Positions 5,341 through 15,439 of a stretch of 64,000 nucleotides of DNA are shown in pieces. The notes beneath the pieces were generated by a model. The model ran no database searches. It worked only from the letters and a program-made list of their open reading frames with translations, and was not told the origin of the DNA. The position numbers were made by a program, and so were the translations under genes. Origin of the DNA: Pseudomonadota bacterium (GTDB lineage: Bacteria > Pseudomonadota > Gammaproteobacteria > Burkholderiales > Burkholderiaceae_C); assembly GCA_031119395.1 (NCBI GenBank), contig JAVHYA010000013.1, forward strand, positions 1 to 64,000, given 5' to 3'. Numbering within the stretch: position 1 is the stretch's first letter; the number at the start of each line of letters is the position of its first letter.

Positions 5341-6633
5341 TCAGGCCGCCTGCAGCTGCTGCGGCGCCCTCTGCGCGGAACGCCCGGCCGCATGCGTGGC
5401 GATCGCCTCGCCCAGGAAGGCCGCGTCGCGCGCGATGCCCGAGAAGCGCCCCGAGCCCCAGGTGTGCAGCCAGGGCAGGCCGAGGAAGTACAGGCCCGGC
5501 TCGCGCGTCACGCCGCGCAGGTGCACCGGATGGCCGCGGCCGTTGAAGACCGGCGCATCCACCCAGGCGAAGTCCGGCGCGAAGCCGATGCACCACACCA
5601 CGCTGGTGATGCCCGCGGCCGCGAGGTCGAGCCGGGTGCGTTCCTCGCCCGGCGTCCACACGGGCTCGTACACCGAGGGCGGCGGCGCCTCGATGCCCTT
5701 CGCGGCGATGTGCTTGTCGATCGAGGCGTTGATGCCGTTGTAGATGCGGTCGGCATGGTCCAGGTTGTCGCGCAGGTTGGGCAGGAACTGCAGGGCGCCG
5801 TCCTCGAAGCCCTCGAGCTGGCCGTACAGCTGCATGCCCTCGCGCGCGAAGCGGCGCAGGTCGATGTCGCGCCCGCCGTCTCGGCCGGTGACGTAGTGGT
5901 TGGTGTTGTCGCGCACGCCCTCGCGCAGCGGGTGCTGCGTGACCGGCATGTCGTAGTAGCCCATGTCGGCCAGCCAGTCGACCACCTCCTTGCCGCGGTA
6001 GAAGCGCGCGCAGCGCGGGGCGTTGCCGGTGGCCAGCACCACCTGCCGGCCCGCCAGGTGCAGGTCCTCGGCGATCTGCGCGCCCGACTGGCCGCAGCCC
6101 ACCACCAGCACCGCGCCCTCGGGCAGCTGCGCGGGGTTGCGGTACTGCGCCGAGTGGTACTGCACCACCGAGGCCGGCAGCTTCTCGGCCATGCGCGGCA
6201 CCACGGGCTTGTGGTAGCCGCCCGAGGCCACCACCACCTGGTCGGCGGTGTAGAGGCCCTCGCTGGTCTGCACCTGCCAGCGCTCGTGCTCGCCGGCGCG
6301 CGACACCTTCTCCACCGACACGCCCTCGATCGCCGGCGCCTTCACCTGCGCGACGAAGCCGGCGAGCCAGTCGTTGATCTGGTCCTTGACCATGAAGCCG
6401 TGCGGATCGTCGCCCCGGTACGGCCAGCCGGGCAGCTGGCACTGCCAGTTCGGCGTGACCAGGCAGAAAGTGTCCCAGCGCTGCGTGCGCCAGCTGTGCA
6501 CGAGGCTGCGCTTCTCGATGACGAGGTGGTCGATGCCGCGCTGCTGGAGTTCATGGCTGAGCGACAGGCCGGCCTGGCCGCCGCCGACGATGACGACGCT
6601 GTAGTGGCTGCGTCCGCCGTAGGGATGGGACAT
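5341..6633 (-). CDS. nitH: Nit1C flavin-dependent oxidoreductase (MSMEG_0569 family)
   Basis: 430 residues. The N-terminal FAD-binding GxGxxG is in [18 protein letters not shown], and a second dinucleotide-binding GxGxSG is in [17 protein letters not shown] near residue 165. This is the two-domain arrangement of flavin monooxygenase-like and Baeyer-Villiger-like enzymes. It corresponds to the last gene of Nit1C clusters (nitH in Pseudomonas nomenclature). The reaction is unknown, and NAD(P)H-dependent oxygenation or oxidation of the pathway intermediate is inferred from the fold. It is the distal gene of the cluster, 29 nt after nitG, and ends at the shared terminator. The start [16 protein letters not shown] places the Rossmann motif at residue 16. 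Confidence 0.9.
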
Positions 6634-6662
6634 GGGGGTTCCTTGGAAGGGTTCGGTCGTTG

Positions 6663-6947
6663 TCAGTCGAAGGCCAGCACCGCGACCTCGGCGTCCGGCT
6701 GGTGGGCGAAGCGCCCGGCGATCTCCTCGATCTGCGCGAGCTGGTCCATGGCCTGCGAGCAGGCGAAGCCGTACTTGGCGCGCACCCGTTCCGACGCGAT
6801 GCCCAGCGCCTCGCGCGTGCGCGCCAGGAAATCGGGCAGCGGGTAGCGGGCGCCGGGCTGCAGGAAGTCCTGAACCACCAGCGAGGGCGAGTAGCAGCGC
6901 GTCTCGCTGGCGTCGGGCCAGCGGACGTGGAAATGCATGACGGGCAT
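6663..6947 (-). CDS. nitG: Nit1C small conserved protein (MSMEG_0570 family)
   Basis: 94 residues, beginning [20 protein letters not shown], which matches the recalled family opening (MP.MHF.VRWPDG). It has no known fold motif or catalytic signature, and it is mixed alpha/beta with an Asp/Glu-rich end. Members occur only in Nit1C-type clusters, so it probably binds or chaperones the pathway's small molecule or partner enzyme; that is inference. The start at 6947 follows an AAGGA ribosome-binding site and lies 13 nt after the glycosyltransferase stop. The longer ORF in the track (to 7418) is an artefact running into that gene. Confidence 0.85.
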
Positions 6948-6960
6948 CGAAGAGGTCCTT

Positions 6961-8160
6961 TCAGGCGGCCTGCGCCAGCACGGGCGCGGCCTGCGCCAGG
7001 CCGGCGCGGTAGAGCTGCACATGGCGCGCCGCGCTGGCCGGCCAGCTGAAGCGGCGGGCGAGGCGGGCGGCGCTGGCCGCCGTGCGCCGCGCATCGTGCG
7101 TGCGCAGCGCGTGCACCAGCGCGTCGGCGATCGACGGCGCCGACAGCGGGTCGGCCCACGACACGTCCGCGTCGGTGAGATGGTCGGTGAAGGGCGCGAT
7201 GCGCGACGCGACGACCGGCACGCCGCTGGCCAGTGCCTCCAGCACCACGAGGCCGAAGCCCTCGCGCGTGGAGGGCATCGCCACCACGTCGGCCAGGCGG
7301 TACAGGCGCGGCATGTCGGCATCGGCGATGGCGCCCAGCAGCTGCACCGGTTGCCCCGGCCCCGCGCGCCAGCCCAGCGCGGCCAGCGTTTCGTCGAAGC
7401 GGCGCGCGTAGGCGGCATGGTCGAGCAGGCTCACGCCGCCGGCCACCAGCAGTCGCGCGTCGGGCTGCGCCTCGCGCAGCCGCGCGAAGGCCTGCAGCAG
7501 GCGCACCGTGTTCTTGCGCTCCTCCACCCCACCCATGGCCAGCACGACGGGACCGCCGCCATCGATGGCCAGCCTCCGGGCCAGCACCCCGTCCTCGGGC
7601 TGCGCGACCGGCGAGAAGCGCGCCATGTCGATGCCGTTGTCGACCTGCATCGCCTCGACGCCGTGCGCTTCGGCCAGGTGCTCGCGCCACAGCCGGCTCA
7701 CGGTGAAGACCTGCGTCGCGGCCTCGAAGGCGCGCTGCTGCCACTGCATCAGTTGCGGCTCGTCGAAGCGGTCGAGGTGATGCACCGTGCGCACGAAACC
7801 GCCGATGCGCCCGCCGGCCAGCAGGTCGGCCAGCGCGTTGCCCCCGATCGAATCGTGCGTGTGCCAGACGTCGAAGTGCTCGCCGCGCGCGAGCAGGCCC
7901 CCGAGGTGCCGCGTGAACGCGTCGATGCGGCTGCGCACCATGGCGACCATGTCGCGCGGCGTGCCGGCCACGGGCACCAGCGACACGCGGCACGCCGGTT
8001 CGCGGAACAGGCGCTGGCCCGGCGCCGCCGGCGCGAACACGGTGACCGCATGGCCGGCCGCCTGCAGCGCATTCGCCAGCTCCAGCGTGTGCACCACGCC
8101 GCCGCGCGGGTTGACCGAATGCGTGAGCAGCGCGATGCGCAGGGATGCGTCTTCAGGCAT
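6961..8160 (-). CDS. Nit1C glycosyltransferase (GT4-like, MSMEG_0565 family)
   Basis: 399 residues with two Rossmann-like halves. The N-terminal half starts LRIALLTHSVNPRGGVVHTL, a typical acceptor-domain glycine loop. The C-terminal half holds the GT4 E-x7-E motif in STREGFGLVVLEALASGVP, which contacts the nucleotide sugar. These enzymes move a sugar from a nucleotide-activated donor with retained stereochemistry. Its presence implies that the Nit1C product, or a carrier of it, is glycosylated. The start MPEDASLRIALL at 8160 overlaps the nitF stop by 8 nt, suggesting translational coupling. Not all Nit1C clusters include this gene, and the Pseudomonas nitA-H set lacks a standard letter for it. 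Confidence 0.88.
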   Translation of the reverse strand: MPEDASLRIALLTHSVNPRGGVVHTLELANALQAAGHAVTVFAPAAPGQRLFREPACRVSLVPVAGTPRDMVAMVRSRIDAFTRHLGGLLARGEHFDVWHTHDSIGGNALADLLAGGRIGGFVRTVHHLDRFDEPQLMQWQQRAFEAATQVFTVSRLWREHLAEAHGVEAMQVDNGIDMARFSPVAQPEDGVLARRLAIDGGGPVVLAMGGVEERKNTVRLLQAFARLREAQPDARLLVAGGVSLLDHAAYARRFDETLAALGWRAGPGQPVQLLGAIADADMPRLYRLADVVAMPSTREGFGLVVLEALASGVPVVASRIAPFTDHLTDADVSWADPLSAPSIADALVHALRTHDARRTAASAARLARRFSWPASAARHVQLYRAGLAQAAPVLAQAA

Positions 8161-9160
8161 GGATCGGCTCCCGGGCGGGCAGAGGCGACGGCGGCTGGAT
8201 GAAGGGCGCCGCGTCCAGGTCCCACAGCAGCGCATCCTCGCCGCCGGCGCGCACCTGCACACGGCGCGAGGCGTCGACCTCGCCGACCACCGCGCAGGCG
8301 ATGTCGCGCGCCGCGAAGCGCGCCAGCACCGTGGCCGCGTGGGCCGGCGGCACGCTCAGCACGAAGCCGTAGCTCGGGAAGGACGCCAGCCAGCGCATCA
8401 GCGGCACCCCGGGCGGCCTCGGCAGCGCGTCGATGTGGATGCGCGCCCCCACGCCGGAGCATTCCAGCAGCATCAGCGCCGTGCCCACGGCGCCGGCCAT
8501 GCTGATGTCCTTGGCGGCGGCGCACAGGCCCTCCTCGGCCAGCGCGGGCAGCAGCTCGAGGTCGGCGCGCAGGCGTGCCGCCGGCGCCTTCGTCGACGCG
8601 TTCCAGTACGGGAAGGGTTCCTCGTAGCCGCCGCGCAGGTCCACCGCCATCAGCAGCAGGTCGCCCGGCCGCGCATCGAAGCTGGTCAGCAGGCGCCGCG
8701 CGTGGCCGAGGATGGCCACGGCCAGCTGCGGCCGCTCGCTGCGGTTGTTGCTGTGGCCGCCGACCACCGGCACGCCGTAGCGCGCCGCCGCCTCGGCCAG
8801 GCCGCGCAGCACCTCGTCGCCGGGGCTCGCGCCGGTGCTCCACAACGCGTCGACCACGGCCGTGGGCCGGCCGCCCATGGCGTAGATGTCGCTCACGTTG
8901 ACCATCACGCCGCAGTAGCCGGCGAACCAGGGCATGCGGACGATGAAGTCCTCGACCAGCCCCTCGATGGCGAAGAGCAGGTAGCCGCCATGCCCGTCGG
9001 GGATGGCCGCGCAGTCGTCGCCCACCGGCACCGCCTGCGCCAGCGCCGCCGCGCCGCCGGGCAGTGCGCGGCCGAGCGTGGCCACCACCTCGCTGATGTC
9101 GCGCTTGTGCGCGAAGCCGCGCGTGGCGCGCAGGGCCTCGGCGATCTCCTGCGCGGTCAT
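8153..9160 (-). CDS. nitF: Nit1C AIR synthase-related protein (sll0787 family)
   Basis: 335 residues with the two-domain PurM/AIRS-like ATP-binding fold. Visible marks are VPVGDDCAAI (the acidic metal/ATP loop), NVSDIYAMGGRP (the DxxAMGG motif) and AAKDISMAGAVGTALML in the second domain. Relatives (PurM, SelD, HypE, ThiL) use ATP to activate a carbonyl, carbamoyl or phosphate group, so an ATP-dependent activation or dehydration step is inferred. HypE makes a thiocyanate/nitrile group, which is an interesting parallel next to a nitrilase. The ATG at 9160 overlaps the nitE stop as ATGA. The track's start at 9448 is an antisense-of-nothing extension through nitE. Confidence 0.88.
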   Translation of the reverse strand: MTAQEIAEALRATRGFAHKRDISEVVATLGRALPGGAAALAQAVPVGDDCAAIPDGHGGYLLFAIEGLVEDFIVRMPWFAGYCGVMVNVSDIYAMGGRPTAVVDALWSTGASPGDEVLRGLAEAAARYGVPVVGGHSNNRSERPQLAVAILGHARRLLTSFDARPGDLLLMAVDLRGGYEEPFPYWNASTKAPAARLRADLELLPALAEEGLCAAAKDISMAGAVGTALMLLECSGVGARIHIDALPRPPGVPLMRWLASFPSYGFVLSVPPAHAATVLARFAARDIACAVVGEVDASRRVQVRAGGEDALLWDLDAAPFIQPPSPLPAREPIHA

Positions 9161-9717
9161 GGCGCCACCTTCGCCCGCGTGACGTAGCCGCTCACCGGGT
9201 CGTGGCAGGGCGGGTAGAGCGCCAGGTCGGCCTGCATCCGCGCATGCGGCCGGCCGTGGATGGCGGTCTCCTCGAGCACGCGCCAGCCCAGCCTGGCGAA
9301 GAGCGGCACGTTCTGCCGCTGCACCTGGGCCAGGAAGGTGGTGCAGCCCAGCGCGTGGGCGCGCGAGACGGCCAGGCGGATCAGCGTCGCGCCCAGGTGC
9401 CCCTGGCTGCGGAAGGCCGGGTGCACCGCCAGGCGCGAGCCCCACCACTCGCCAGCCGCCTCGCCGCGGTGGATGCGCACCGTGCCCACCACCTGCTCGG
9501 GCATGCCGGCGGTGCAGGACATGGCCACCAGCAGCTGCGCGTCGTCGTCGATCGCATCGCGGTCGTCACGCGCGAAGATGCCCTGCTCGATGCAGAACAC
9601 CGCGCGGCGCAGGGCCATCGCCTCGTCGCGTTCCCACGGCTGCTGGGCCTCGCGCACGAGGTACTCGACCGGGGTGTAGACGAGCGCCAGTTCGCTCAGG
9701 TCGTCGGCGTGCAGCAT
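9157..9717 (-). CDS. nitE: Nit1C GNAT N-acetyltransferase (MSMEG_0567 family)
   Basis: 186 residues with a GNAT core. The acetyl-CoA pyrophosphate-binding segment is RLAVHPAFRSQGHLGATLIRLAV, a variant of the R/Q-x-x-G-x-G/A motif, preceded by VVGTVRIHRGEAAGEWW. An early ALRRAVFCIEQGIF resembles the N-terminal receptor helices of autoinducer-synthase-like GNATs. It should transfer an acyl group to an amine of the pathway intermediate. It starts 10 nt after nitD and shares an ATGA overlap with nitF, so the three are translated from one message. Confidence 0.88.
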   Translation of the reverse strand: MLHADDLSELALVYTPVEYLVREAQQPWERDEAMALRRAVFCIEQGIFARDDRDAIDDDAQLLVAMSCTAGMPEQVVGTVRIHRGEAAGEWWGSRLAVHPAFRSQGHLGATLIRLAVSRAHALGCTTFLAQVQRQNVPLFARLGWRVLEETAIHGRPHARMQADLALYPPCHDPVSGYVTRAKVAP

Positions 9718-9727
9718 GGGATGCTCC

Positions 9728-10846
9728 TCAGCTTTCGTACACCGACAGCGACGAGCAGGCGCCGCACTTGCCGCAGCCGGCCTTGATGTCGCCCGAACGC
9801 AGCCCCGCCGCCGCCACGCGCGCGCCCAGCGGCTCGAGGATGCTGCGCATGAACTCGGGCGAGGGGGCCGGGTGGTCCTCCAGCGGCGTGCCGCTGATCG
9901 GCACGAAGGGCACGACGAAGGGGTACACGCCCAGCGCCAGCAGCTGGTCGCCGATGTCGAGGATGGCCTCGCGCGAATCGCCCAGGCCCGCGAGGATGTA
10001 GGTGCTGACCTGGCCGCGGCCGAAGACGCGCACCGCGGCCTCGAAGGCGCCCAGGTAGCGCTCGACCGGTACGCTGGCCTTGCCGGGCATGATCTTCTCG
10101 CGCACCTCGGGCGTCACCACCTCCAGGTGCATGCCCAGCGTGTCGATGCCGGCGGCGTGCATGCGCGCGAACCAGCGGTCGTCGTCGGGCGGCTCGCACT
10201 GGCCCTGGATGGGAATGTCGACCGCCGCCTTGATGGCGAAGGCGCTCTCGCACAGGATGGCGGCGCCGCGGTCGGTGGCGTTGGGCGTGCCGGTGGTCAG
10301 CACCATGTGCTTCACGCCGTCGAGCAGCACGGCGGCACGGGCCACCTCGGCGAGCTGCTCGGGCGTCTTGCGCGCCACGGTGCGACCGGCCGCCAGCGAC
10401 TGGCCGATCGCGCAGAACTTGCACGTCTTCTTCCGGCTCTCGTAGCGGATGCAGGTCTGCAGCACGGTGGTGGCGAGCACGTCGCTGCCGTGCAGCGTGG
10501 CGATGTGCGAATAGGGCACGCCGTCGAAGGTCTGCATCGCGTAGAAGCGCGGCTGCTTCGGGAAGCTGATGCTGGCGATCGGGATGCTGCCGCGCATCAC
10601 CCGGCTCACGCCGCGCGCATCGGGCGCCTCGGCGGTGAAGGGCGAGTGCCAGGCCGTGGAGGTGTGCACCGGCACCATGATCGTGTGGCCGTCGACGGTG
10701 ACGGCCTTGTGGTCCGACGGTCCGGCGCCGCCGCGGCGGCTGGACGCGCCGGCCGCCGGGTCAGCCAGCCGCAACCCGAAGGACTGGAGCTGGGTCATCA
10801 ACTGGCGGCTGGACAGCGTGTCGCTCGTGTCGGGGGGCGTGTTCAT
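9728..10846 (-). CDS. nitD: Nit1C radical SAM protein (MSMEG_0568 family)
   Basis: 372 residues. The radical SAM cluster ligands are in [17 protein letters not shown], so the spacing is C-x9-C-x2-C rather than the usual C-x3-C-x2-C. A second three-Cys motif, [11 protein letters not shown], sits at the extreme C-terminus and could bind an auxiliary Fe-S cluster. A TIM-barrel-like middle includes [16 protein letters not shown]. The enzyme should cleave S-adenosylmethionine to a 5'-deoxyadenosyl radical and act on an unknown substrate. The start MNTPPDTSD at 10846 is chosen over a TTG at 10864. With this start, the gene lies 86 nt inside the end of nitC, which is unusually deep for an operon. 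Confidence 0.88.
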
Positions 10847-11807
10847 GGTCGGGGCTCCAGGCAACGGAAGGGGTGGAGGACATCGGCACCACGGGCGTGG
10901 CGGGCCGGTCGTTGAGGGCGAGCGACAGCAGTTCGGGCCGCGCGTAGTGGCCCACCGAATCCATCATTCGCTTGCGCTTGGCGATCAGCGCCATGTCGAG
11001 GTCGGCGATCACCATGCCCTCGCCCTCGGTCAGGGGCGGCGCCAGGTGCTTGCCCTCGGGCGAGACGATCGCCGTGTGGCAGCCGCCGCGCAGCGCCTTC
11101 TGCAGGCCGGCATCGGGCGTGACCGAGCGGATCTGCTCGTCGGTGAGCCAGCCGGTGGCGTTGACCACGAAGCAGCCCGACTCCAGCGCGTGGTGACGGA
11201 TGGTCACTTCCATCTGCTCGGCGAAGATCGGGCCGACCAGCGAGCCGGGGAACTGCGCGCAGTGGATCTCCTCGTGCTGCGCCATCAGGCTGTAGCGCGC
11301 GAGCGGGTTGTAGTGCTCCCAGCAGGCCAGCGCGCCGACGCGGCCGACGGCGGTGTCGACCACCTTCAGGCCGGCGCCGTCACCCTGCCCCCACACCATG
11401 CGCTCGTGGTAGGTGGGCGTGATCTTGCGGCGCTTGAGGACCAGGGCGCCGTCGGCATCGAACACCAGCTGCGTGTTGTAGAGGCTGCCGTGGTCGCGCT
11501 CGTTCACGCCGAGCACCACCACCACGCCGTGCGCCCGCGCGCTCTGCGCCACCGCCTGCGTGACCGGCCCGGGCACGACCACGGCCCGCTCCATCAGCTT
11601 CAGGTGCGGCGCACCCTGCTGCACGGGCGGCAGCACGAAGCTGAAGTAGGGGTAGTAGGGCACGAAGGTCTCGGGAAAGACCGCGAGCTGCGCGCCCTGC
11701 TTCGCCGCGCCTTCGATGGCCTCGCACACGCGCTCGAGCGTGCCCTCGGGCCGATCGAAGTCCGGCGCGATCTGGACCGCTGCGGCACGAACGATGCGCG
11801 AGCCCAT
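10761..11807 (-). CDS. nitC: Nit1C nitrilase (sll0784 family)
   Basis: 348 residues of the carbon-nitrogen hydrolase superfamily. The catalytic triad is visible as Glu in [15 protein letters not shown], Lys in [13 protein letters not shown] and Cys in [14 protein letters not shown]. Nitrilases turn a nitrile plus two waters into a carboxylate and ammonia. In Pseudomonas strains the homologous nitC is tied to growth on cyanide through hydroxynitriles (recalled literature). The start is the ATG at 11807 ([15 protein letters not shown]), with a track start at 11837 possible. The last roughly 30 residues ([16 protein letters not shown]...) are translated from within nitD and look like read-through: a single-base change of frame near 10860 would give a normal ATGA junction. 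Confidence 0.92.
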
Positions 11808-11892
11808 GATCAGTGCCGCCCGGCCGCCCGAAGGCACTGAGCGCCCCCTGCGGGGGGCAGCGATACACGCAGTGATGAGCGTGGGGGCTTCA

Positions 11893-12375
<483 letters not shown>

Positions 12376-12482
12376 GGGGTACTCCGTTGGGATTGAACAA
12401 AGAGGGGGTTGCGTGCCGGGCCGAAGCCACGTCGCCGCGCTGTTCTCTTCGCATTCGATGTGCCAGCCGCGCAGGGCCCCCG

Positions 12483-12733
12483 TGCGATCAAGCTGCGATC
12501 AACACGCAGCCGTGCGGCATGGCGCGCCGAAAAAAATCTCGCGGCCCCTCCAAGGGCCGGCCCGCGGACCTCGCACGGCGGTGCCGGTGCACCGATCCGA
12601 CGCGCCGCGCATGCGATCAATGCACCCGATCAAGGGGGTTGATCGCACCCGATCGATGCGCCGGTCTCCTCTGGCGCGGGCACGCTTTCTGCACGTTGAT
12701 CGGTGTGTGCATGCAATCAATGGATGCAATCAA
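12483..12733. promoter_or_regulatory. array of TGC(G/A)ATCAA half-sites, putative MocR operator region
   Basis: The nitB-mocR intergenic region carries at least seven copies of one 9-mer. TGCGATCAA is at 12483 and 12494 (11 nt apart) and at 12612, with a partner CCCGATCAA at 12625 (13 nt apart). The inverted copy TTGATCGCA is at 12639, with a weaker inverted TTGATCGG at 12696. TGCAATCAA is at 12712 and 12725 (13 nt apart), ending at the regulator's GTG. MocR proteins such as PdxR and GabR bind direct plus inverted repeats, so this array probably controls both nitB and the regulator itself. Confidence 0.7.
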
Positions 12734-14131
12734 GTGAGCTCGTCATCGATCACCACCCACTGGCGCCGGCAGCTGCGCGCCAGCGCCAAGCCGGCGTACC
12801 TGCTGCTGGCGGACCTGATCGCCGACGACATCCGCACCGGGCGCCTGGGCGTGCGCGACCGCCTGCCCACGCTGCGCGAGCTGGCGGCCGACCTGGCGCT
12901 CAACTACACGACGGTGGCGCGCGGCTATGCCGAGGCGCGCAAGCGCGGCCTGATCGACTCGCGCGCCGGCACGGGCACCTTCATCCGCTCGGGCTCGCCG
13001 AGCCTGCGCCTGCGCGGCGGCAGCGGGGCCGAGATGACGATGAACATGCCGCCCGAGCCGGCCGACGAGCATCTGCTCGCGCGCCTGCACGAGGGCATGG
13101 CACGCGCCTGCGCGCAGGCCGACTTCTACGGCCTGATGCGCTACCAGGACTTCGGCGGCGCCGCGCAGGACCGCGAGGCCGCGATGCATTGGCTGCGGCC
13201 GCACGTGCCGGACGCGGGCATCGACCGCATCCTGGTGTGCCCCGGCATCCACAGCGTGCTGACGGCGCTGTTCTCGCTGCTGGCGCGGCCGGGCGAGCTG
13301 ATCTGCGTCGAGTCGCTCACCTACCCGGGCGTGAAGGCCATCGCGGCGCAGCTGGGCGTGCAGCTGCATGCGCTTCAGCTGGACGACGACGGCCCGATCG
13401 CGGACGCCTTCGAGCACGCCTGCAAGACGCTCAAGCCCAAGGCGCTGTACTGCAATCCGACGCTGCTGAACCCGACCACCATGACCGTCTCGCGCGCGCG
13501 GCGCGAGGCGCTGGCCGATGTGGCGCTGCGCTACGCGGTGCCGATCATCGAGGACGACGCCTACGGCATGCTGCCGCGCCAGATGCCGCCTTCCCTGGCC
13601 ACGCTGGCGCCGGCGCTGACCTACTACCTCACCGGATTCGCCAAGTGCTTCGGTGCCGGCCTGCGCACCGCCTACGTGTGCGCCCCGACGGCGCGGCTGG
13701 CGCAGCGGCTGGCCGGCGCCATGCGGGCGACCACCGTGATGGCCTCGCCCGTGACGAATGCGCTGACCACGATGTGGGTGGAGGACGGCACCGCCGACGC
13801 CATGCTGCAGGCGGTGCGCGCCGAATCCGTGGCACGCCAGGCGCTGGCGGCGCGCCACCTGGGCGAGCATGGACTGCAGGCGCATCCGGAGGGTTTCCAC
13901 GCCTGGCTGCCGCTCACGCCCGGGTGGAGCCCGGTGGAGTTCGCCTCCTACCTGCGCACGCAGAACGTCGGCGTGGTGGCGAGCGCTGCCTTCTCGACCG
14001 ACGGCGACCCGCCCGACGCCGTGCGCATCTGCCTGGGCGGGCCGATGGGGCGCGAGGACTGCGACGAGGCGCTGCGGCTCATCGCCGACACGCTGACGCA
14101 CCCGCAGCATCCGCACGCGACGCTGGGCTGA
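12734..14131 (+). CDS. MocR-type regulator: GntR HTH fused to a class-I aminotransferase domain
   Basis: About 465 residues. Residues 15-85 are a GntR winged helix (AYLLLADLIADDIRTGRL, LPTLRELAADLALNYTTVAR, GTGTFIR). The rest is a fold-type-I aminotransferase domain with YCNPTLLNPTTMTVS, PIIEDDAYGML and the PLP lysine in LTGFAKCFGAGLRTAYV. Such proteins use PLP as a sensor, often together with an amine or amino acid ligand. The GTG at 12734 is chosen because the HTH follows immediately and the upstream reading frame crosses the operator array. No clear Shine-Dalgarno is seen. Divergent orientation from nitB makes it the likely Nit1C regulator. Pseudomonas clusters use a sigma-54 activator, NitA, instead. 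Confidence 0.88.
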   Translation: MSSSSITTHWRRQLRASAKPAYLLLADLIADDIRTGRLGVRDRLPTLRELAADLALNYTTVARGYAEARKRGLIDSRAGTGTFIRSGSPSLRLRGGSGAEMTMNMPPEPADEHLLARLHEGMARACAQADFYGLMRYQDFGGAAQDREAAMHWLRPHVPDAGIDRILVCPGIHSVLTALFSLLARPGELICVESLTYPGVKAIAAQLGVQLHALQLDDDGPIADAFEHACKTLKPKALYCNPTLLNPTTMTVSRARREALADVALRYAVPIIEDDAYGMLPRQMPPSLATLAPALTYYLTGFAKCFGAGLRTAYVCAPTARLAQRLAGAMRATTVMASPVTNALTTMWVEDGTADAMLQAVRAESVARQALAARHLGEHGLQAHPEGFHAWLPLTPGWSPVEFASYLRTQNVGVVASAAFSTDGDPPDAVRICLGGPMGREDCDEALRLIADTLTHPQHPHATLG

Positions 14132-14806: not shown

Positions 14807-15439
14807 ATGATCAAGATCGGAATCGTCGACGACCACGCCGTGGTGCGCGCAGGCCTGCGCGACTTCTTCGCCACCCATGTGGACCTGCGGGTCGCGGGCG
14901 AGGCATCCTCCGGCCGCGAGGCCATCGACCTGGTGCGCAACACCGAGATCGACGTGCTGGTGATGGACCTGTCGATGCCCGGCCAGAGCGGCATCGATGC
15001 GCTGGCGATGATCCGCGCCAAGGCGCCCGACGTCGGCATCCTGATCCTCAGCGGCTACCCCGAAGAGCACTACGCGATGAACCTGATCCGCCAGGGCGCC
15101 TCGGGCTACCTGAACAAGGACTGCGAGCCCGACGAGATCGTCAAGGCCGTGCGCACCATCGCGCTGGGCCGCCGCTACATCACGCCGGCCGTGGCCGACC
15201 TGCTGGCCAACCAGCTGGGCAAGAAGGAGAACACCGCGCCGCACGAGCAGCTGTCGGAGCGCGAGTTCCAGGTCTTCCTCAAGCTGGCCAAGGGCGAGAC
15301 GGTGGGCAAGATCGGCGACGACCTGTCCCTCTCGGTCAAGACCATCAGCACCTACCGCACGCGCCTGATGGAAAAGCTCAACCTGCAGACCAACAGCGAC
15401 CTCACGTACTACGCGATGAAGTCGCAGCTCATCGACTGA
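14807..15439 (+). CDS. NarL/FixJ-family response regulator
   Basis: 210 residues. The N-terminal receiver domain has IGIVDDHAVVRAG (acidic pocket), phospho-acceptor Asp in VLVMDLSMPGQSG, and Lys in GYLNKDCEPDE. The C-terminal LuxR-type HTH is LSEREFQVFLKLAKGETVGK followed by SLSVKTISTYRTRLMEKLNL. It should bind DNA as a dimer after phosphorylation by a histidine kinase. No kinase lies beside it in the window, so the partner is unknown. An AGAGG sequence stands 9 nt before the ATG. A GC-rich hairpin (GGGGCGC...GCGCCCC) follows the stop before the next small gene. Confidence 0.92.
   Translation: MIKIGIVDDHAVVRAGLRDFFATHVDLRVAGEASSGREAIDLVRNTEIDVLVMDLSMPGQSGIDALAMIRAKAPDVGILILSGYPEEHYAMNLIRQGASGYLNKDCEPDEIVKAVRTIALGRRYITPAVADLLANQLGKKENTAPHEQLSEREFQVFLKLAKGETVGKIGDDLSLSVKTISTYRTRLMEKLNLQTNSDLTYYAMKSQLID

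Follow-up and report, generated by a model that had tools for sequence, protein, structure and literature searches.

A conserved array of predicted MocR sites around an apparent sigma-54 promoter of a Nit1C cluster

Introduction

How might a gene cluster be controlled when the regulator encoded beside it lacks the machinery that its promoter seems to demand? The Nit1C cluster is widespread, and neither its exact chemistry nor its control is settled; in the survey by Podar et al. (2005), no conserved sites for a regulator were seen upstream of the cluster (PMC1199592). In the 64,000-nucleotide stretch of bacterial DNA that we analysed (the window), the first Nit1C gene, nitB, lies back to back with a gene for a MocR-type protein, and in the gap between them an earlier note, made from the sequence alone, had picked out a dense array of one 9-mer, TGCRATCAA.

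In this paper, we ask what that array is and which protein might read it. The array is real and evolutionarily conserved, and the idea that it comprises the probable sites predicted for the neighbouring MocR-type regulator is well supported. The boxes are arranged around a sigma-54-type -24/-12 element directed at nitB, and the gap thus holds what looks like the nitrogen-stress (sigma-54) promoter of a cyanide/nitrile-utilisation cluster. This gives Nit1C across Burkholderiales a precise candidate operator, promoter type and regulator, and with a single protein, a 250-bp piece of DNA and two deletions, one could test what signal Nit1C answers to.

The genes and the regulator

The complete set TIGR04042-TIGR04049 is present, in order and above cut-off. 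Next to nitB, the matches are nitC, a Nit6803-type nitrilase (TIGR04048), a radical SAM protein (TIGR04043), a GNAT protein (TIGR04045), an AIR-synthase-like protein (TIGR04049), a glycosyltransferase (TIGR04047), a member of the MSMEG_0570 family (TIGR04042) and a flavin oxidoreductase (TIGR04046).

The mocR product carries PF00392 (residues 25-84) and PF00155 (residues 125-448), both above cut-off. When it is aligned with eight orthologues of 41-75% identity, the Schiff-base lysine K304 is invariant, as are D274, Y277 and N246, and its S/A-K...GAGLR motif aligns with SKTLGPGLR of MppQ. A profile search returned structure 7pq9 over the full length and GabR over part of it. The protein is, then, a predicted PLP-binding regulator of the MocR/GabR subfamily, and the boxes about one or several helical turns apart that mark operators of that subfamily appear to be present as well, as direct pairs at 11 and 13 bp. 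Among curated models, EhuR (NF052286) scores best, at 392.6 bits against a cut-off of 480, and we reject identity with the ectoine regulators EhuR/EnuR on that score. Judged by MocR, the closest named genomes among the best 80 of 409 relatives are Comamonadaceae bacterium ALPHA2B (98%) and Xenophilus aerolatus (97%). Following mocR on the same strand (14810-15439) is a LuxR/NarL-type response regulator, recognised by eye from the list of open reading frames.

Table 1. Positions, in the window, of the genes and of the elements between nitB and mocR
Feature	Position	Strand	Remark
Remaining Nit1C cluster	5341..11837	-	seven TIGR models, all above cut-off
nitB, MSMEG_0572/Sll0783 family, first Nit1C gene	11893..12375	-	TIGR04044, 282 bits
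Sigma-54-type -24/-12 element of nitB, TGGCACATCGAATGC	12451..12465	-	75 nt before the nitB ATG
Site 1, direct pair TGCGATCAA-gc-TGCGATCAA	12483..12502	+	11-bp spacing; 17 bp upstream of the nitB -24 element
A/T tract between Sites 1 and 2	12530..12538	.	possible intrinsic bend
Left NtrC-like dyad, TGCACCGATCCGACGCG	12588..12604	.	
Site 2, direct pair TGCGATCAA-tgca-CCCGATCAA, mid gap	12612..12633	+	13-bp spacing; whole site TGCRATCAATGCAYCCGATCAA
Inverted 9-mer, exact, TTGATCGCA	12639-12647	-	clade-limited
Right NtrC-like dyad, CGCACCCGATCGATGCG	12644..12660	.	overlaps the inverted box
Sigma-54-like element toward mocR, GGGCACGCTTTCTGC	12678..12692	+	weaker
Second inverted 9-mer, TTGATCGGT	12696-12704	-	weaker, imperfect
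Site 3, direct pair TGCAATCAA-tgga-TGCAATCAA	12712..12733	+	13-bp spacing; downstream of the mocR element, abuts GTG
mocR, GntR wHTH plus aminotransferase domain	12734..14131	+	PLP lysine K304

The repeat array

The gap runs from the nitB ATG at 12375 (minus strand) to the mocR GTG at 12734 (plus strand). In the letters of the window, exact direct copies of TGCRATCAA start at 12483, 12494, 12612, 12712 and 12725, and a sixth, degenerate box (CCCGATCAA) starts at 12625. The earlier note's count of at least five direct copies therefore holds, with six direct boxes in all, and its two inverted copies turn out to be one exact and one imperfect. It had the spacing right, 11 nt for 12483/12494 and 13 nt for both 12612/12625 and 12712/12725, and the last box does stop at 12733, one letter short of the GTG.

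Is the 9-mer special to this place? Pattern searches on both strands of the window's own assembly (5,136,398 bases in 167 contigs) found it to be rare elsewhere, as the proposal of an operator needed it to be: 25 copies in the 5.14-Mb genome, 6 of which fall within these 251 bp (Poisson P about 1e-21, with the 19 outside copies as background). Pairs are more telling still. TGCRATCAA-N2-4-TGCRATCAA occurs twice genome-wide and the tandem CRATCAA-N4-6-CRATCAA three times, every one of them in the nitB/mocR gap. The same genome-wide search gave no paired 9-mer sites outside the gap and no sign of a wider regulon, and we reject a regulon built on such pairs.

Conservation in orthologous gaps

Relatives of MocR were gathered from 100 related genomes, from order-wide and class-wide samples of NitB and from one scan of 84,980 species, of which the best 80 of 409 MocR relatives were used. 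The sample comprised 107 divergent nitB/mocR gaps, 93 of them distinct and 67 non-redundant once similar gaps had been removed; because the gaps share descent, all counts overstate the independent evidence.

Direct RATCAA pairs are kept at just the two spacings seen in the window, which bears out the conservation on which the earlier note had made its idea depend: 11 bp in 74 of the 93 distinct gaps (0.01 expected from dinucleotide shuffles) and 13 bp in 70 of the 93 (0.06 expected), with any other spacing in at most 6 of the 93. With relaxed pairs, the non-redundant gaps show the 11-bp spacing in 59/67 and the 13-bp spacing in 50/67. What did not survive is the combination of direct and inverted repeats as the conserved mode. 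The 67 non-redundant gaps hold 202 direct 9-mers and 12 inverted ones, the inverted 9-mer being present in 12/67 gaps from a few clades; because of this imbalance, we regard the direct pair as the operator unit and the inverted copy as an addition in few clades, and we reject inverted repeats as the core operator.

Short words recur in any genome, and one could imagine that the array is a chance or mutational repeat without function. The rarity of the 9-mer in the genome, the pairs unique to this gap and the conservation among orthologues, with spacing preserved over MocR identities of about 55-100%, refute that idea, which we consider vanishingly improbable.

Clusters with the array have a MocR gene beside nitB in nearly all cases or, in Methyloversatilis, elsewhere in the same cluster. 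Not every orthologue has Sites 2 and 3. Two Nit1C/MocR lineages occur within one genus (L003-L008 and L013-L019), with MocR proteins 92-99% and 55-57% identical to that of the window; the second Xenophilus lineage is without Site 3, and its nitB -24/-12 spacing is one base short.

Two promoters and three sites

The nitB element follows the TGGCAC-N5-TTGC type as a sequence element, with a single departure in the -12 box, and TGGCAYN6TGC points toward nitB in 64 of the 67 non-redundant gaps, where 0.6 would be expected. Toward mocR, a relaxed sigma-54-like motif lies within 110 nt of the start in 49/67 gaps (0.7 expected), and the strict motif is found in 11/67 (1.1 expected). Our search of the gap for a sigma-70-type promoter found none, and we reject that candidate.

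Around these promoters, the array is not one uniform operator but three sites, which differ in spacing and in their relation to the two sigma-54-like promoters. The earlier note saw the repeats correctly and missed both this three-site layout and the promoters. Site 1 keeps its distance from the nitB element: counted from its first RATCAA base, it lies 19-20 bp away in 46 gaps and 29-31 bp away in 10, and no distances in between occur among the gaps measured. Site 2 retains its spacer, TGCAYC, together with its 13-bp pair. The distance from Site 1 to Site 2 is mostly 109-110, 117-119, 127-130, 139-140 or 162-163. At a period of 10.5, the mean resultant is 0.97 for Site 1 to the sigma-54 element, 0.84 for Site 1 to Site 2 and 0.72 when only distinct Site 1-Site 2 distances are used. 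Both series move in steps of roughly a helical turn, and we take the phasing as strongly suggestive and not as proven, because the gaps share ancestry.

Site 3, taken as a 13-bp pair no more than 110 nt from the start of mocR, is present in 39/67 gaps, and at least one 9-mer lies there in 52/67. In most cases, the -12 end of the mocR element is followed by the nearest box at 0 or 22-24 bp; a site over or just past the -12 element is placed as a repressor site would be and therefore suggests autorepression.

The A/T tract between Sites 1 and 2 exceeds shuffles in A/T for many gaps and mostly lies ~40 bp from Site 1. A terminator-like stem (12542-12559, minus strand; 7 pairs followed by ATTTTT) adjoins this tract, whose position is partly conserved, in the region upstream of nitB; the stem might act as an attenuator or be no more than a bend.

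Who reads the boxes?

Sigma-54 promoters usually require an upstream activator and often have IHF sites. Could the boxes, then, be bound by some other protein, with MocR adjacent for other reasons? Candidates would be IHF or another nucleoid protein, and the sigma-54 activator as well. Site 1 is promoter-proximal and is kept even where no divergent mocR is present, as such a protein might have it. Yet the box is not the IHF consensus, and IHF-like sites occur in 2 gaps against 0.75 expected, no notable enrichment, which leads us to reject IHF as the reader.

Clusters that have been rearranged speak to the same issue, and also to whether the operator goes with nit or with mocR alone. In five Methyloversatilis-type genomes (L157-L161), mocR has moved away from nitB to a place past the last nit genes, as judged by eye from the reading frames. 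All five nitB promoters keep the -24/-12 element and lack Site 3, the site that otherwise stands at mocR. Site 1 persists as an exact 11-bp pair in 4/5 (L159 has a single box together with an inverted one); Site 2 has both 13-bp boxes in L158 and L159 and one exact box in the other three. In a further genome (G249), a porin-like gene has been inserted between nitB and a MocR of 65% identity, and Site 1 and the sigma-54 element remain at nitB. Two Nit1C clusters without a MocR beside nitB serve as negative controls: L054, from a genome with no MocR, and L179 are both without the boxes and without a strict -24/-12 element. The loss of Site 3 and these two controls argue against a different reader, as do direct pairs one turn apart, which match the operator style of MocR proteins as described in the main text of a regulon survey (PMC5320631). 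A different reader seems to us improbable. In one Burkholderiaceae genome (L135, L162, L163), mocR is enclosed by two nitB genes that lie ~4.1 kb from each other, and the two promoters differ.

NtrC-like dyads

On both sides of Site 2 lie dyads of the form YGCACC-N5-GRNGC, which are found at fixed distances in 48/62 gaps. On the left, GCAC stands at -26/-25 from Site 2 in 48/62 gaps, with the second half, GRNGC, conserved; on the right, GCAC stands at +30/+29/+28 in 49/62, and a GC is kept 13-14 bp from its start. Measured against the NtrC dyad GCACC-N5-GGTGC, the first half is strong, the second half is degenerate and the positions are conserved. The Pseudomonas NtrC consensus, GCACCA-N3-TGGTGC, has the same spacing, although here the second half has degenerated (PMC12977541).

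The genome has a clear ntrC gene, and its own amt serves as a positive control: TGCACCGGGGCAGTGCA is followed 88 bp on by TGGCACGGCTCGTGC. The two genes, amt and nitB, share the dyad type and the same nTGC variant of the -12 box, the amt dyad being the better one. Because the dyad geometry matches, ntrC is present and amt has the same dyad and -12 variant, we propose NtrC, with moderate confidence, as the best candidate for the sigma-54 ATPase at this promoter.

A possible mechanism

A MocR protein has no AAA+ domain and cannot open a sigma-54 complex alone. To our knowledge, control of the GabR/PdxR type works at sigma-70-type promoters. The earlier note had proposed the GabR/PdxR binding mode; the array is indeed operator-like, and the mechanism must differ, because the MocR has no AAA+ domain and the promoters are of the sigma-54 type. 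Its further prediction, that nit genes and regulator would be controlled together and mocR would regulate itself, agrees with the anatomy of divergent promoters with sites at both.

The explanation that we favour, and that we think rather probable, is that a Nit1C-specific MocR represses its own promoter and governs nitB-H jointly with a sigma-54 activator, which is probably NtrC. The array would be the operator set of this MocR, laid on two divergent sigma-54-type promoters, with each direct pair taking one head-to-tail dimer. At Site 3, which coincides with the mocR -12 element or lies a little beyond it, MocR would lower mocR expression. Upstream of the nitB -24/-12 element, Sites 1 and 2 occupy a nearly constant face of the helix, and this fixed phase suggests help to, or control of, the sigma-54 activator. 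MocR carrying PLP and its ligand would turn on nitB-H in concert with an enhancer-binding ATPase, for which NtrC, seated on the dyads to either side of Site 2, is the likeliest candidate, and the cluster would respond to nitrogen starvation and, through PLP, to a nitrile- or cyanide-related signal, both being needed.

The same parts could be wired the other way. MocR at Sites 1 and 2 may loop or stiffen the DNA or block NtrC, acting as a repressor or anti-activator of nitB-H until a ligand releases it, by a logic like that of EnuR or of HutC at the sigma-54 hut promoters. Site 2 lies between both NtrC-like dyads, the inverted box of the window is overlapped by the right one, and the phasing of Sites 1 and 2 is compatible with a loop. 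There are precedents too: the GntR-type protein HutC acts as a repressor at a sigma-54 promoter, in competition with NtrC (PMC12977541), the MocR of the cio cluster of P. pseudoalcaligenes is reported as repressing (PMC8567248) and EnuR represses (PMC8739950). But Site 1 stands behind the nitB -24/-12 element at fixed phase and does not overlap it, a position more typical of activation, and Site 3 alone is placed like a repressor site. We therefore favour co-activation by MocR with NtrC and regard repression by looping or competition as a lesser possibility, worth keeping in mind.

Known systems

Known MocR proteins dimerise head to tail and prefer direct boxes separated by one or several turns, according to the main text of the survey by Suvorova and Rodionov (2016; PMC5320631). 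The GabR, TauR and PdxR systems described there resemble ours in the GntR wHTH joined to an aminotransferase-like PLP domain, in direct boxes ~one helical turn apart and in a divergent target combined with autoregulation. They differ in that our boxes form three separated sites that flank sigma-54-type promoters, and most survey motifs contain TGT or TGG, whereas ours is TGCRATCAA. That main text, supplements aside, mentions neither a nitrilase nor a TGCRATCAA-like motif.

Among single regulators, the ectoine group EhuR/EnuR/EutR supplies the nearest curated model, under whose cut-off our protein falls; the operators of EnuR consist of inverted repeats of the form ATTGT-N6-ACAAT, located at a sigma-70 promoter (PMC8739950), unlike the direct pairs here. 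NitA of the Pseudomonas Nit1C cluster also adjoins nitB divergently and also involves sigma-54, but NitA is itself a sigma-54-dependent regulator (PMC11049912); our MocR, unlike NitA, has no AAA+ domain, and an activator from elsewhere would therefore be needed. Control of hut in Pseudomonas by HutC, NtrC and sigma-54 offers a GntR-type ligand sensor that vies with NtrC at a sigma-54 promoter (PMC12977541), yet HutC is from another GntR subfamily, lacks a PLP domain and recognises TGTA-N2-TACA. MpaR of P. aeruginosa is a cyanide-responsive MocR-type protein, proposed to sense cyanide through a PLP-cyanide adduct, although its palindromic ATCTGAT ~61 bp upstream of the start, its predicted -10/-35 promoters and its targets are all different (PMC10790758). 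By analogy, PLP-cyanide sensing of that kind would suit a nitrile/cyanide cluster, and we offer it as a lead, not as evidence.

The literature that we searched held nothing on point about a MocR acting with sigma-54, and in what we found, the combination of a MocR operator with a sigma-54-type nit promoter is without description. Sigma-54 control of the rhizopine MocR might have been a forerunner, and we reject it as such: that paper found no consensus and left the question open. Viridisamide was dropped as a lead to the Nit1C product, the papers being irrelevant. If we are right, sigma-54 promoters come within the reach of MocR proteins, although MocR alone cannot open them.

More distant clusters

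How far does the arrangement reach? Within Burkholderiales, 13 of the 15 sampled Nit1C clusters have a divergent MocR, and the other two have one nearby. Across the phylum outside Burkholderiales (L170-L180), MocR adjoins nitB in 10 of 11 further clusters; nine of those ten hold a strict, near-perfect sigma-54 element at nitB, and the boxes have mostly drifted toward CATTCAAT/CATACAAT. Because these clusters keep MocR and the sigma-54 element with a drifted box, the arrangement may be old. More broadly, and only tentatively, since we hold it with a little less than even confidence, the PLP-dependent MocR could be a ligand-gated partner of sigma-54/NtrC, replacing NitA in an old arrangement that gates Nit1C jointly by starvation and by nitrile or cyanide.

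At L050 and L165, nitB is preceded by a MocR gene of 48% identity that runs the same way; in the gap, a sigma-54 element is kept, and ATGCATGCAAT-type repeats replace the usual boxes.
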